Below are positions 9,679 through 14,664 of a DNA stretch of 64,000 nucleotides, one piece after another; the stretch's first letter is position 1, and each line of letters starts with the position of its first letter. The DNA lies in NCBI RefSeq assembly GCF_014640155.1, contig NZ_BMGK01000001.1, forward strand, positions 1-64,000. The letters are read 5' to 3'. Under the pieces are notes generated by a model. The model searched no databases. It was not told the origin of the DNA and saw nothing but the letters and a program-made list of their open reading frames with translations. This DNA is from Planktosalinus lacus. Its GTDB lineage: Bacteria; Bacteroidota; Bacteroidia; Flavobacteriales; Flavobacteriaceae. The translations under genes and the position numbers were made by a program.

Positions 9679-11043
9679 TTATGTTGTTTCCAAAACTTTA
9701 TAGATTTTATCTGAAAGTCTTAATTTAAAGGGAAGTTGAAGCGTTACTTTATCACCTTTTGAAGCTTTATCAGATACCGTTCCATTGACATAAAATGTGT
9801 CCAACTTGACTTTTTGTTTGCCTGTAGTTGGTCCATAAATCAATAAAGTGTCTCCGTTATGAATGCACCCGTTTTCCATAATAAATAAGCCCACTTTTGA
9901 CTTTGAGTAGTAATGTTGTCCATTACCGACGATTTCTTTTTTTAAAGCGGTTTTTATAATGGTTTCTTTTTTCTTAGTCGCTTTTGCCAAAGAAGTATTG
10001 GTTAAGCTTCCGGAGGTTTTAAATTTTAACGCGGGTGATTTTCCTTTTCTAAATATTTTATTTCCCAGTTGTTTTCCTTTACGTAATTTAATTTGTTCAA
10101 CCAAAGGAAGCTGAACAACATCTAAACAATCTGTAGAACAACAGTTTTGCATTTTATCTTTACAAGATTCACACTGAATAAACAATAAATGGCAGCCATC
10201 ATTGGCACAATTGGTGTGATCGTCACATGGGGCTCCACATTGATGGCATCTTGAAATGATATCATCTGTGATGCGTTCACCTAAACGGTTGTCAAACACA
10301 AAGTTTTTTCCGATAAAATTATTAGTAAGTTCTTCATTCTTTATTTGACGAGCATATTCAATGATACCGCCTTCAAGCTGATACACATTTTTAAAACCTT
10401 TGTGTTTGAAAAATGCACTTGCTTTTTCACATCGAATTCCACCAGTACAATACATCAACAAGTTTTTATTTTCCTTGTGTTGGGCTAGTTGTTTCTCTAT
10501 TATTGGAAGTGATTCTCTAAAAGTTTCAACATCGGGGGTAATGGCTCCTTTGAAGTGTCCGATTTCACTTTCGTAGTGATTTCTCATATCAACCACAATA
10601 GTGTTTGGATCCTCTAAAAGCTGATTAAATTCTTTCGCTTTTAAATGAACACCTTTATTAGTAACGTCAAAAGTTTCGTCGTTTAAACCGTCTGCAACAA
10701 TTTTTTTTCTCACTTTAATTGTGAGTTTCAAGAAGGAGAAGTCATCTTGTTCTACTGCCACATTTAGTCGTATTCCCCTCATAAAAGAATATTCTTCAAT
10801 TCGATTTTTAAACTCGTAGAAATTATCTGCAGGCAACGATAGTTGAGCATTGATTCCTTCCTGAGCAACATAAATTCTGCCGAGAACCTCCAGTGGATTC
10901 CAAGCCAGGAATAATGCGTCTCTAAAAGCTTTTGGGTTTTCAATTTTGGCATAGGCATAGAAAGACAACGTAAGGCGTTGTTTTCCGGCTTTATCGATAA
11001 GCTCGGCTCTTTCATTTGCGCTTAAAGTGTTGTACAGTTGCAT
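9679..11043 (-). CDS. trhO: tRNA uridine(34) hydroxylase TrhO (rhodanese family) with C-terminal extension
   Basis: 454 residues. The N-terminal part matches TrhO/YceA: an acylphosphatase-like region (VAQEGINAQLS) then a rhodanese domain with CTGGIRCEKA (Cys199, Cys205). A cysteine-rich segment (CHQCGAPCDD to CCSTDC, about 268-308) is typical of the family. Family members use oxygen to hydroxylate U34 of certain tRNAs. After a Lys-rich linker, residues about 370-454 form a further domain with NGDTLLIYGPTTGKQKV and KGDKVTLQLPFKLRLSDKIYKV. This resembles the EF-Tu-domain-II-like C-terminus of U32 peptidases, the family of the TrhP enzyme that serves the same tRNA position. Its own promoter lies at 11099-11128. 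Confidence 0.9.
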   Translation of the reverse strand: MQLYNTLSANERAELIDKAGKQRLTLSFYAYAKIENPKAFRDALFLAWNPLEVLGRIYVAQEGINAQLSLPADNFYEFKNRIEEYSFMRGIRLNVAVEQDDFSFLKLTIKVRKKIVADGLNDETFDVTNKGVHLKAKEFNQLLEDPNTIVVDMRNHYESEIGHFKGAITPDVETFRESLPIIEKQLAQHKENKNLLMYCTGGIRCEKASAFFKHKGFKNVYQLEGGIIEYARQIKNEELTNNFIGKNFVFDNRLGERITDDIISRCHQCGAPCDDHTNCANDGCHLLFIQCESCKDKMQNCCSTDCLDVVQLPLVEQIKLRKGKQLGNKIFRKGKSPALKFKTSGSLTNTSLAKATKKKETIIKTALKKEIVGNGQHYYSKSKVGLFIMENGCIHNGDTLLIYGPTTGKQKVKLDTFYVNGTVSDKASKGDKVTLQLPFKLRLSDKIYKVLETT

Positions 11044-11098
11044 GCTATAAACGTTTTAAGTGAGAAATAAAATTTGTTCTAAATGGAAGAACAGGCTG

Positions 11099-11128
11099 CA
11101 AAAATAATGGTTTTGCTGCTTTATTCAA
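11099..11128 (-). promoter_or_regulatory. Predicted trhO promoter
   Basis: Minus strand: TTG (11126-11128), a 19-base spacer, then TATTTTTG (11099-11106), an exact match to TAnnTTTG at the preferred spacing. It predicts a transcript start near 11094 and a leader of about 50 nt. Confidence 0.7.
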
Positions 11129-11130
11129 CA

Positions 11131-11165
11131 AAAAAAGCATCAAATATTCATTTGATGCTTTTTTT
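11131..11165 (-). terminator. Isolated bidirectional terminator inside a divergent intergenic region
   Basis: Perfect stem AGCATCAAAT / ATTTGATGCT (11136-11145 and 11150-11159) with a 4-nt loop, flanked by six A on one side and seven T on the other. It lies between two genes that both read away from it (trhO leftward, recA rightward) and just upstream of the trhO promoter. It therefore cannot end either gene. It most simply ends the small leftward unit at 11228-11320. Confidence 0.8.
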
Positions 11166-11227
11166 GAATGGCTAATTCGTTATTACTTGTTTTTTAATTA
11201 AATCGGTCAAAAAAAAGTAGTGCCGAG

Positions 11228-11320
11228 CTAGCCCCCATCAATTTTACTACCATTGCAAACTGCAATTGTAACAGTAAAGCCACTTGAATTAATCAGTATG
11301 TTTTTTCTTGAAGATTTCAT
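11228..11320 (-). CDS. Putative small peptide gene, 30 residues
   Basis: ATG at 11318-11320, TAG at 11228-11230. The product starts MKSSRKNILINSSG, continues with a small-residue and beta-branched stretch (FTVTIAVCNG) and ends in KIDGG. One cysteine is present. The ORF lies 63 bases upstream of a strong terminator that has no other gene to serve. A near-consensus -7 element (TACATTTA) lies 7 bases before the ATG. No homologue is recognised. The C-terminal Gly-Gly recalls peptide leaders, but no modification or export gene is adjacent. The rest of the 403-bp gap 11044-11446 holds only the promoters and terminator listed here. Confidence 0.4.
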   Translation of the reverse strand: MKSSRKNILINSSGFTVTIAVCNGSKIDGG

Positions 11321-11385
11321 TCAGATTTTAAATGTAGTCATTTAATTTCAAGATGAAAAATTATTGAAAAGGTTGCGCTCATCTA

Positions 11386-11416
11386 TTGGTATGCACAAAA
11401 AGAAATAGTATTTTAG
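11386..11416 (+). promoter_or_regulatory. Predicted recA promoter
   Basis: TTG (11386-11388), a 20-base spacer, then TATTTTAG (11409-11416), one base from TAnnTTTG. It lies 30 bases upstream of the recA ATG. No SOS operator could be assigned. Confidence 0.5.
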
Positions 11417-11446
11417 CAACAACTATTTTTTATTAAAATCTTAAAG

Positions 11447-12457
11447 ATGAGCAAGGAAAAAGACGCAAAACTAAAGGCATTAAAACTTACTTTAGACAAA
11501 TTAGATAAGACATATGGCAAGGGAGCTGTAATGAAACTTGGAGATCAAGCTGTACAGGAAGTAGATTCTATTTCAACCGGTTCACTTGGTTTAGATATTG
11601 CATTGGGAGTTGGAGGCTTACCCAAAGGTCGTGTAATTGAAATTTACGGACCTGAATCATCAGGTAAAACAACTTTAACATTACACGCGATTGCCGAAAG
11701 TCAAAAAGCTGGTGGTATAGCTGCATTTATTGATGCAGAGCACGCTTTTGACCGCGGCTATGCGAAAAAACTGGGTGTGGATATTGAAGAGTTAATAATC
11801 TCCCAGCCCGATAATGGTGAACAAGCACTTGAAATTGCTGATAATTTAATTAGAAGTGGTGCTATAGATATTGTGGTTATTGACTCTGTTGCTGCCTTGA
11901 CACCCAAGAGCGAGATTGAAGGTGAAATGGGTGATTCAAAAATGGGATTGCATGCTCGATTGATGTCACAAGCCCTAAGAAAATTAACTGGGTCAATTAG
12001 TAAAACGCATTGCACTGTTATTTTTATAAACCAATTGAGAGAAAAAATTGGTGTTATGTTTGGAAACCCTGAAACCACTACCGGTGGAAATGCATTAAAA
12101 TTTTATGCGTCGGTTAGATTAGATATTAGGCGCTCTACCCAAATTAAAGACAGCAATGGTGATGTCCAAGGCAATAGAACACGTGTAAAAGTCGTTAAGA
12201 ATAAAGTAGCGCCTCCTTTTAAAACTGCCGAATTTGACATTATGTATGGCACCGGGATTTCAAAAGTGGGTGAAATTATTGACTTGGGTGTAGATTATGA
12301 AATCATCAAAAAAAGCGGCTCCTGGTTTAGTTATGGAGACACCAAATTGGGCCAAGGAAGAGATGCCGTAAAAGCTTTAATACTTGATAATCCTGAACTC
12401 TTGGAAGAACTTGAGATAAAAATTAAAGAAGCAATTGCATTGTTGAAAACAACTTAA
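11447..12457 (+). CDS. recA: Recombinase RecA
   Basis: 336 residues, close to the normal RecA length. Walker A is GPESSGKTT (about 69-77), the LIDAEHAFD-like segment reads [11 protein letters not shown], and the L2 region [27 protein letters not shown] is fully conserved. RecA forms filaments on single-stranded DNA, drives strand exchange and triggers LexA-type cleavage. The acidic C-terminal tail of E. coli RecA is short here. It is transcribed alone, with a long-stem terminator behind it. The nearby dprA suggests competence functions in the genome, but the two genes are not linked in an operon. Confidence 0.98.
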
Positions 12458-12559
12458 TGAATAATCAAACTTTTGATGAAATTTTAGAAAAACAAAACCA
12501 TTTAAAACTTTAGATTAAAAGTTAAAAAAAACACAACAACGCAACCCAACATAATAATT

Positions 12560-12618
12560 TGCATCTACAAATAAAGACCCTTATTTATAAGTGAAATTTA
12601 TGTAGATGCATTTTTTTT
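12560..12618 (+). terminator. Terminator after recA
   Basis: Outer stem TGCATCTACA / TGTAGATGCA (12560-12569 and 12601-12610), 10 bp perfect, followed by eight T (12611-12618). The 31-nt loop can fold internally (ATAAA/TTTAT). It separates recA from the ECF sigma gene. Confidence 0.75.
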
Positions 12619-12655
12619 AAATTTCAACTATATTTTCACATTAAAAAGGGAATTA

Positions 12656-13195
12656 TTGGCTTTAGAAGAGCTCATAGAAAAATGTAAAAACGAGGACAGA
12701 AAAGCACAAGGAGAGCTTTACACGTTGTTTTCGAACAAGTTGTATGCTGTTTGCTTAAAATATTCTCGCAATGCTGAAGAGGCTCAGGATAACCTCCAAG
12801 ACGCTTTTTTAACTATTTTTAAAAGCATAGGCCAATTCAAGTTCAAAGGCTCTTTTGAAGGATGGATAAAACGCATTACTGTAAATACAGTCTTACAGAA
12901 ATACCGCAAAGAGCGTTTTTTTGAAATAGTGAATGAAGAACTTCTTGAAGAACCCGAAGTTGAAATCGATGAGCAGAGCTTGTCGCTAGATTTTCTCCTA
13001 AGATTGATTCAGGAGTTGCCAGACAGATACCGGATGGTGTTTAACCTGTATGTTTTAGATGATTATTCACATCAGGAAGTGGCCGAAATGCTTGAAATTA
13101 CTGTTGGCACATCAAAATCAAACCTTGCAAGGGCAAGAATGATTTTAAAAAATAAAATTGAAGAAAGTAAACCTGCTCAGGCAAAGAGCAATTAA
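12656..13195 (+). CDS. RNA polymerase ECF-type sigma factor
   Basis: 179 residues. The sigma-70 region 2 reads YSRNAEEAQDNLQDAFLTIFKSIGQF (split: AEEAQDNLQDAF and TIFKSIGQFKF) and region 4 reads LPDRYRMVFNLYVLDDYSHQEVAE then LEITVGTSKSNLARAR, the helix-turn-helix that reads the -35. The start is TTG at 12656; the open frame upstream has no other plausible start codon. The next gene begins 5 bases later and encodes a protein with an anti-sigma-like N-terminus, the usual regulator-partner layout of Bacteroidota. Target genes are unknown; autoregulation is likely but not shown. Confidence 0.9.
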   Translation: MALEELIEKCKNEDRKAQGELYTLFSNKLYAVCLKYSRNAEEAQDNLQDAFLTIFKSIGQFKFKGSFEGWIKRITVNTVLQKYRKERFFEIVNEELLEEPEVEIDEQSLSLDFLLRLIQELPDRYRMVFNLYVLDDYSHQEVAEMLEITVGTSKSNLARARMILKNKIEESKPAQAKSN

Positions 13196-13200
13196 CTAAT

Positions 13201-14664
13201 ATGAAAACAAAAAAGCAAATAGACCGGCTTTTTAAAGAGCAATTCAAAAATCTGGAGACGGCTCCACCATCTTCTGTTTGGGAAAATATCGATGCTGCTC
13301 TTGAAAAAAGACAAAACAAAAAGCGTGTTGTGCCTTTATGGTACAAACTGGCCGGTGTTGCTGCATCTCTTTTTATTATATTGAGTGTAGGAAGTTTATT
13401 TTTTAACTCTTCTGAAGATTCTCAAATAACTTCTGAAGATAGTATTGAAAATGTTGAAAGTAAGTTTTCTGACCCAAATAGCAATTCATTAAAGCCGTCA
13501 GAAAAAAGCTCAGATGCTTTGGTTGAAAACAATCAAACAACTCAAAAGGATTCTAAATCAAATAATTTAAATACAGGTTCTGAATCTAACAAGTTAAATT
13601 CACAAATCTCAGAAACAACTAGTTCTCCTAAATCTGATTTGGTTAAAGACTCAAAAAACAATTTTGTTTCAAACAGTTCGAAATCTGATGAAAATGAAAC
13701 TTTTACAGATATTGCTGAGGTTTCAAAGTCAAAAATTAAAGAAAAAGAAACTGACGAAAAAGAAACTGACAAAGATTACATTTCAAATACAACATTTGTT
13801 GAAACTACCATAGCCAATACAGATGTTACAGAGGAGGATACGTCGGAAGAAAATAAAAAATCACTCATTGAATATATTGCAGAAAAAAATGAGGAAGCTT
13901 TAATTGTTGAAAATTCTGAAAAGGAAAACAAATGGGAAGTTAGCCCAAACTTTGCTCCTGTATATTATAACACATTGGGTGACGGTTCATCAATAGACCC
14001 TCAGTTTTCAAACAATTCAAAATCGGGAGATATTAATTACAGCTATGGAGTGAAGGTGAGTTATGCCATTAATGATAAACTAAGTGTCAGAACAGGCTTC
14101 AACAAAGTTGACCTTAGCTACTCCACCAATAATATAGAATTTGCTGTAGCCAGCTCTTTTGAAGACGGGCTTCAAGCAGTTAATTATAAAAATAAAGATA
14201 TTATAGTCGCAGTAGGACCCCGTGGCAGCCTAACACCTCCTCCTGCCGGAACTCCAACAATGACAGAAGATGGTATTCAAATAGTTCCTAGAAACGGGAT
14301 TACTTCCGGTTCTATGAAGCAAGAGCTAGACTATTTTGAAATCCCCCTTGAATTAAAATACAATTTAACAAACAATCGATTAGGTGTTAATTTAATTGGT
14401 GGTTTGAGCACCCTTTTATTGAACAACAATCAGGTAAGTGTACTTTCAAATGGTTTTCAATCTGAAATTGGAAGTGCCAACAATTTGAATGATTTAAGTT
14501 TTAGCACCAATATTGGATTGGGTCTTGATTATAAGCTCAGCAATAGCTTTGTGTTTAACCTTGAGCCCATGTTTAAATACCAGCTCAACACTTATTCAGA
14601 CAATGCCATTGACTTTAAACCTTATTACTTAGGGGTTTATAGTGGATTTAGTTATAAGTTTTAG
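13201..14664 (+). CDS. Anti-sigma-like, envelope-spanning protein with C-terminal beta-barrel domain
   Basis: 487 residues. Residues 1-45 (FKEQFKNLETAPPSSVWENI) are the cytoplasmic motif seen in Bacteroidota proteins that pair with ECF sigma factors. One transmembrane helix follows (about 45-66, LAGVAASLFIILSVGSLFF). A low-complexity Ser/Asn/Lys/Glu linker occupies about 70-235. The C-terminal 250 residues look like a PorT-type outer-membrane beta-barrel: alternating aromatic/polar strands, NYSYGVKVSYAINDKLSVRTGFN, and a terminal YSGFSYKF. The gene lies 5 bases behind the sigma factor gene, so it probably controls it. The topology suggests that a signal passes from the outer to the inner membrane in one chain; that is inference. 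Confidence 0.75.
   Translation: MKTKKQIDRLFKEQFKNLETAPPSSVWENIDAALEKRQNKKRVVPLWYKLAGVAASLFIILSVGSLFFNSSEDSQITSEDSIENVESKFSDPNSNSLKPSEKSSDALVENNQTTQKDSKSNNLNTGSESNKLNSQISETTSSPKSDLVKDSKNNFVSNSSKSDENETFTDIAEVSKSKIKEKETDEKETDKDYISNTTFVETTIANTDVTEEDTSEENKKSLIEYIAEKNEEALIVENSEKENKWEVSPNFAPVYYNTLGDGSSIDPQFSNNSKSGDINYSYGVKVSYAINDKLSVRTGFNKVDLSYSTNNIEFAVASSFEDGLQAVNYKNKDIIVAVGPRGSLTPPPAGTPTMTEDGIQIVPRNGITSGSMKQELDYFEIPLELKYNLTNNRLGVNLIGGLSTLLLNNNQVSVLSNGFQSEIGSANNLNDLSFSTNIGLGLDYKLSNSFVFNLEPMFKYQLNTYSDNAIDFKPYYLGVYSGFSYKF

Follow-up and report, generated by a model that had tools for sequence, protein, structure and literature searches.

The window, by which we mean the whole 64,000-nucleotide stretch of Planktosalinus lacus DNA that was analysed, contains a gap between the divergently transcribed genes trhO and recA, in which an earlier note, made from the sequence alone, had placed a small leftward gene with its own terminator. 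The features of this gap and of the adjoining regions are:

9679..11043, minus strand: trhO (NCBIfam NF001133, TrhO equivalog), the same-strand downstream neighbour, outside the small-gene unit
11044-11446: the trhO-recA gap, separating trhO (minus) from recA (plus)
11099..11128, minus strand: sigma-A promoter of trhO, TTG-N19-TATTTTTG (from the comparison of -7 boxes)
11129..11166, minus strand: intrinsic terminator of the small gene, a bidirectional inverted repeat (fold z -6.0 on the minus strand)
11170..11233, minus strand: RNA hairpin with the stop codon inside (conserved across 56 loci)
11228..11320, minus strand: small ORF, 30 aa, MKSSRKNILINSSGFTVTIAVCNGSKIDGG, stop codon TAG (from family homologues and ps/pn)
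11321..11346, minus strand: predicted 5' UTR of ~25 nt (start site deduced from the position of the -10 element)
11351..11376, minus strand: ECF-type promoter, GCAACC (11376-11371), N15, CATCT (11355-11351) (exact motif, genome scan)
11447..12457, plus strand: recA, the constant divergent neighbour (protein search)
12541..12566, plus strand: the same ECF-type promoter, GCAACC-N15-CATCT, before the sigma gene (exact motif)
12656..13195, plus strand: ECF sigma factor, the proposed regulator (Pfam Sigma70_r2 and Sigma70_r4_2; NCBIfam sigma70-ECF)
13201..14664, plus strand: protein combining a hydrophobic segment at its N terminus with an outer-membrane beta-barrel domain (Pfam OMP_b-brl_2)

With a folding energy of about -19.5 kcal/mol on either strand (z -5.5 and -6.0), the inverted repeat at 11129-11166 agrees with its earlier description as a bidirectional terminator; a mechanical scanner missed it because of its A+T-rich stem. 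Both flanking genes diverge from it, as had been stated, and the promoter claimed for trhO beyond the terminator was recovered, with a -7 box TAnnTTTG in 55/55 trhO-adjacent loci compared to 6.0 in shuffles. Since trhO has its own -7 box beyond the terminator, the terminator belongs to something other than trhO. The 30-codon ORF is present at 11228-11320 on the minus strand as described. Using a profile built from 13 sequences (E < 1e-4), we identified a homologue in 61 of the 299 Flavobacteriaceae genomes that were sampled, one copy in each, among them Kordia jejudonensis (L290), Subsaxibacter sp. CAU 1640 (L297) and Haloflavibacter putidus (L299), while samples of the order and of the phylum yielded no convincing copy outside this family. 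Each of the 66 loci examined has a single copy of the ORF, divergent from recA; in almost all of them it encodes 28–31 residues, nearly all homologues end with K/R-x-D-G-G-stop, and in 63 of the 66 a terminator follows 48–91 nt after the stop codon.

Within the genus of the window, two genomes can be aligned at ~80% over the whole trhO-recA gap; in two others the DNA of the gap has diverged, yet the identical position codes for the same peptide. The comparison of synonymous and nonsynonymous changes, which the earlier note had proposed together with a search for homologues, revealed purifying selection on the ORF (ps 0.313 vs pn 0.080 in 16 close pairs, Fisher p ~6e-23). All four Gly codons are in use at Gly29 and Gly30 of the homologues, and all three stop codons occur. 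Both the ORF and the RNA structure discussed below are conserved in relatives, and the proposal of a separate leftward gene receives strong support from synteny, codon-level selection and terminators in ~60 genera. Judged by this comparison of genomes, which brings out its coding constraint as well as its promoter motif, hairpin and terminator, the small gene is a real, free-standing one. Neither of two ORF members searched against Pfam and NCBIfam matched any family up to E 10, on which grounds membership in a known protein family was rejected, and neither these two databases, nor Rfam, nor the openly accessible literature that was searched held a description of the protein or the RNA.

In the window, the ECF-type motif stands 31–56 nt before the ATG of the small ORF, with a spacer of exactly 15 nt, and the motif (with the -10 element as NATC[TA]) occurs at the matching position in 64 of the 66 homologous loci. 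The -35 element lies 64–71 nt from the recA start codon in 51 loci, and the distance from the -10 element to the ATG amounts to 18–42 nt in the short-leader class. Long-leader loci (L037, L066, L083, L090 and others) have a 5' UTR of 80–130 nt, which includes a mini-ORF from GCTATGAAA and its own hairpin; in L067, L068 and L076 an upstream mini-ORF overlaps the start of the small gene. The genus of the window retains the -35/-10 motif intact, but not the GCTATGAAA block. It is the ECF promoter that explains the region shared with recA; an SOS/LexA link to recA is an unsupported idea.

The same motif is found downstream of recA in nearly all loci that have the sigma gene, and its position before this gene suggests that the sigma factor may regulate its own expression. 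The exact N15 motif has 6 matches in the genome of the window, as opposed to 0 for the reversed pattern. They include the small gene, the sigma gene, a 36-aa membrane microprotein and a 132-aa lipoprotein-like protein, with the motif-to-gene distance alike for the latter two; the remaining two matches (window 48536 and 61269) are inside genes and are probably due to chance. In relatives, the motif precedes mostly genes of lipoproteins, and sometimes of outer-membrane proteins. A second microprotein (35–36 aa, MMTVLIIIGALxACNFLLLHFSCND...) follows this ECF motif in each of the five genomes of the genus (L197, at C6:94442 minus in the genome of the window itself, L191, L193, L194 and L195), and shows no match in Pfam or NCBIfam. 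The protein encoded at 13201-14664 has a long Ser/Glu-rich linker between its hydrophobic segment and its beta-barrel domain; it could possibly serve as a one-piece sensor or anti-sigma factor.

Co-occurrence was analyzed in 97 recA loci without a profile-search match. Of these 97, 11 have neither the ECF gene nor the ECF motif downstream of recA; the upstream promoter is found in 0/11 of these and the ORF also in 0/11, and the sigma orthologue is missing from 9 of the 11 genomes. Three ORF-bearing genomes seemingly devoid of the sigma gene turned out to carry it a few kb away. From these correlations we infer that the ECF sigma factor is paired with the GCAACC-N15-CATCT promoter, and the small gene most likely belongs to the regulon of the sigma factor encoded after recA, which probably serves envelope stress. 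The involvement in recA or trhO control presumed by the earlier note appears wrong or unsupported: because the gene after the terminator varies, whereas the recA side and the ECF motif stay, the small gene goes with the ECF sigma factor that follows recA and not with trhO. A terminator-like hairpin stands after recA (12541-12620, plus strand; TGCATCTACA...TGTAGATGCATTTTTTTT), and its 5' arm includes the -10 element of the sigma promoter, so that transcripts of recA could stop at this point and those of the sigma gene could get past it. This arrangement is seen in the genus of the window; overall, an inverted repeat of the -10 region occurs in 17 of 144 regions.

The small ORF ends within a conserved, covarying hairpin, GGYUAACUCG...CGAGUUAGUC, which includes its last Gly codon and its stop codon. 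This hairpin precedes the terminator, and in the window its 5' and 3' arms are at 11233-11222 (GGCTAGCTCGGC) and 11181-11170 (AACGAATTAGCC). In 56 loci, 85% of the pair cells are kept, compared to at most 51% with the arms slid; the MFE z-score averages -4.8 and falls below -2 in 55 of the 56, and in 53 of them the own arms pair better than swapped arms, which is clearest where the arms have diverged. The pair counts exceed those of shuffle controls only modestly, because bulges shift the register. The same bulges explain why RNAalifold returned no consensus fold on the hairpin alignment, and therefore the arm-swap and MFE tests were used instead. Rfam gave no match in the window at the gathering score and weak sub-threshold matches in five loci, by which a known RNA family was ruled out.

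Several other interpretations of this locus have to be considered. The earlier note had pointed to a -7-like string near the ATG, TACATTTA, which is indeed present in the window and has counterparts in relatives of the same genus (TATATTTA and TATATTTG). If it were the -7 box of a sigma-A promoter, the small ORF would be read from a leaderless mRNA; however, the relatives of the same genus lack a TTG at the right upstream distance, and outside the genus the -7 box is missing, while the ECF motif at 11351-11376 is kept in nearly all loci and represents the conserved promoter of the whole family. We regard the leaderless transcript as very unlikely, and propose that transcription most likely starts at the ECF-type promoter, ~30 nt upstream of the promoter indicated previously, although TACATTTA could act as a secondary promoter within this genus. 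In most loci the ORF, the hairpin and the terminator precede trhO in its own orientation, which might in turn suggest that the ORF encodes a leader peptide and that trhO is controlled by transcription attenuation. This candidate was rejected because trhO owns a promoter past the terminator in every trhO-adjacent locus and because the downstream gene varies: elsewhere the next gene encodes a U32 peptidase, a MetB-like enzyme or a PSP1-like protein, and the ORF, the hairpin and the terminator remain. Neither do the arms of the hairpin overlap with those of the terminator, and we find control of trhO by attenuation very improbable.

As for the peptide itself, it comprises a basic N terminus, a beta-prone middle part and a K-x-D-G-G C terminus, and AlphaFold2 models it as a low-confidence beta-hairpin with a free C-terminal tail (pLDDT 68, pTM 0.26). 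Besides the C terminus, no single biochemical feature is conserved, and hydropathy varies widely. One could regard it as a very small lipoprotein, lipidated at Cys25, given that the basic N terminus, the moderately hydrophobic middle and the SSCKADGG end resemble a Bacteroidetes lipoprotein signal and that lipoproteins are included in the regulon, or else as a membrane toxin of a type I toxin-antitoxin system. Yet 7 of the 58 homologues that were aligned have Ser or Phe in place of Cys25 (Ser in that of the window) and position -3 is usually Asn, and the lipoprotein was rejected because the lipobox Cys is not conserved. Peak hydropathy goes down to 0.07 in some members, too variable for a membrane-spanning toxin, which was likewise rejected; a single copy per genome in fixed synteny, with no antisense gene recognised, also speaks against these readings. 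Taken together, a lipoprotein or toxin nature of the peptide seems to us highly unlikely.

The question whether the transcript acts as a protein-coding or a regulatory RNA, both of which the earlier note had offered, is more intricate, and the answer is probably both. In 48 surveyed genomes we found an ECF promoter divergent from recA and a predicted short transcript, in many cases ended by a clear terminator, without a recognisable ORF. The block TGCTATGAAA is kept in 24 of these 48 loci (0.03 in shuffles) and CTAACTC in 21 (0.13 in shuffles), frequently at ~+25 and +58 after the -10 element. Where the ORF is present, the corresponding places are the regions of the start codon and the stop codon or, among long-leader loci, a separate 5' block. 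ORF-less transcripts with conserved blocks are found e.g. in Seonamhaeicola aphaedonensis (L289), Mariniflexile fucanivorans (L303) and Maribacter orientalis (L288). In one clade (L016, L017, L022, L023, L216, L221, L224, L231, L232 and L234) the ORF-less transcript contains a hairpin GGTGGTCATTTCC/GGAGTGGCC, followed by TGCTATGAAAAAG and a terminator; this hairpin looks homologous to the stop-codon hairpin. On the recA tree, the ORF label requires at least 12 changes on well-supported branches, in a sample of loci that was partly chosen for the ORF. Judging from these sequences, repeated losses appear to have removed the ORF and left the promoter and the transcript in place, which implies that the peptide is dispensable.

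It may thus be argued that the transcript is in essence an ECF-dependent regulatory RNA, similar in role to the sigma-E sRNAs, in which the ORF is a secondary passenger kept only in some lineages: the recA-divergent ECF promoter persists without the ORF, CTAACTC and TGCTATGAAA often keep a fixed spacing, a conserved hairpin surrounds the stop codon, and the losses of the ORF are scattered across the recA tree. Against this speak the strong synonymous bias over the whole ORF and the conservation of its length and C terminus in ~60 genera. Moreover, GCTATGAAA doubles as the start-codon context of other regulon genes and as such is no proof, so that only CTAACTC provides independent support for an RNA function. 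We consider this possibility a serious one, but lean against it. A further idea is a dual-function stress RNA, in which a ribosome at the Asp-Gly-Gly-stop would open the hairpin and bare UAACUC for pairing with mRNAs of envelope proteins, the peptide having a separate role and the RNA of ORF-less lineages being always open; ORF-less relatives do keep CUAACUC without the complementary arm. Such a mechanism appears unlikely.

We propose instead that a transcript of ~200 nt runs from the ECF-type promoter to the terminator at 11129-11166, and that it would be switched on, most likely in envelope stress, by the ECF sigma factor encoded after recA, along with lipoproteins and another tiny membrane protein. 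It would code for the conserved 30-residue protein, with the stop codon in the conserved hairpin just before the terminator, and would most likely act through this protein as a stress-induced microprotein, while the structured RNA may have a second, post-transcriptional role that persists where the ORF was lost. As a whole, a microprotein of the ECF regulon encoded by a structured RNA with a second role is, in our assessment, the best explanation and a likely one.

In enterobacteria, the sigma-E-dependent small transcripts MicA, RybB and MicL end at terminators and are made alongside envelope genes by a sigma factor of the ECF type that responds to envelope stress. The predicted transcript described here is likewise short and terminator-ended and associated with an envelope-gene regulon, but it belongs to Bacteroidetes, keeps a fixed synteny with recA and codes, in many genera, for a conserved protein of 30 aa. 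Bacteroidetes are not known to possess Hfq. Another parallel is SgrS/SgrT, a small, stress-induced dual-function RNA that combines a conserved short ORF with conserved non-coding elements. Our transcript, presumably also stress-induced, shares this combination; unlike in SgrS/SgrT, its stop codon is inside a conserved hairpin, and its ORF was apparently lost repeatedly with the promoter kept. Within the same bacterial family, small RNAs (e.g. Rfp18) and the ECF promoter motif SM6 were reported from F. psychrophilum (PMC9723704); small transcripts and ECF-type promoters are what they share with our locus.

Our analysis adds an apparently undescribed family of microproteins, together with a promoter code and a likely sigma factor, to a large family of environmental bacteria in which little is known about the response to envelope stress. 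The GCAACC-N15-CATCT motif predicts a small ECF regulon, and the occurrence of what appears to be the same stress transcript with and without the ORF offers a comparative system in which the functions of the peptide may be separated from those of the RNA.
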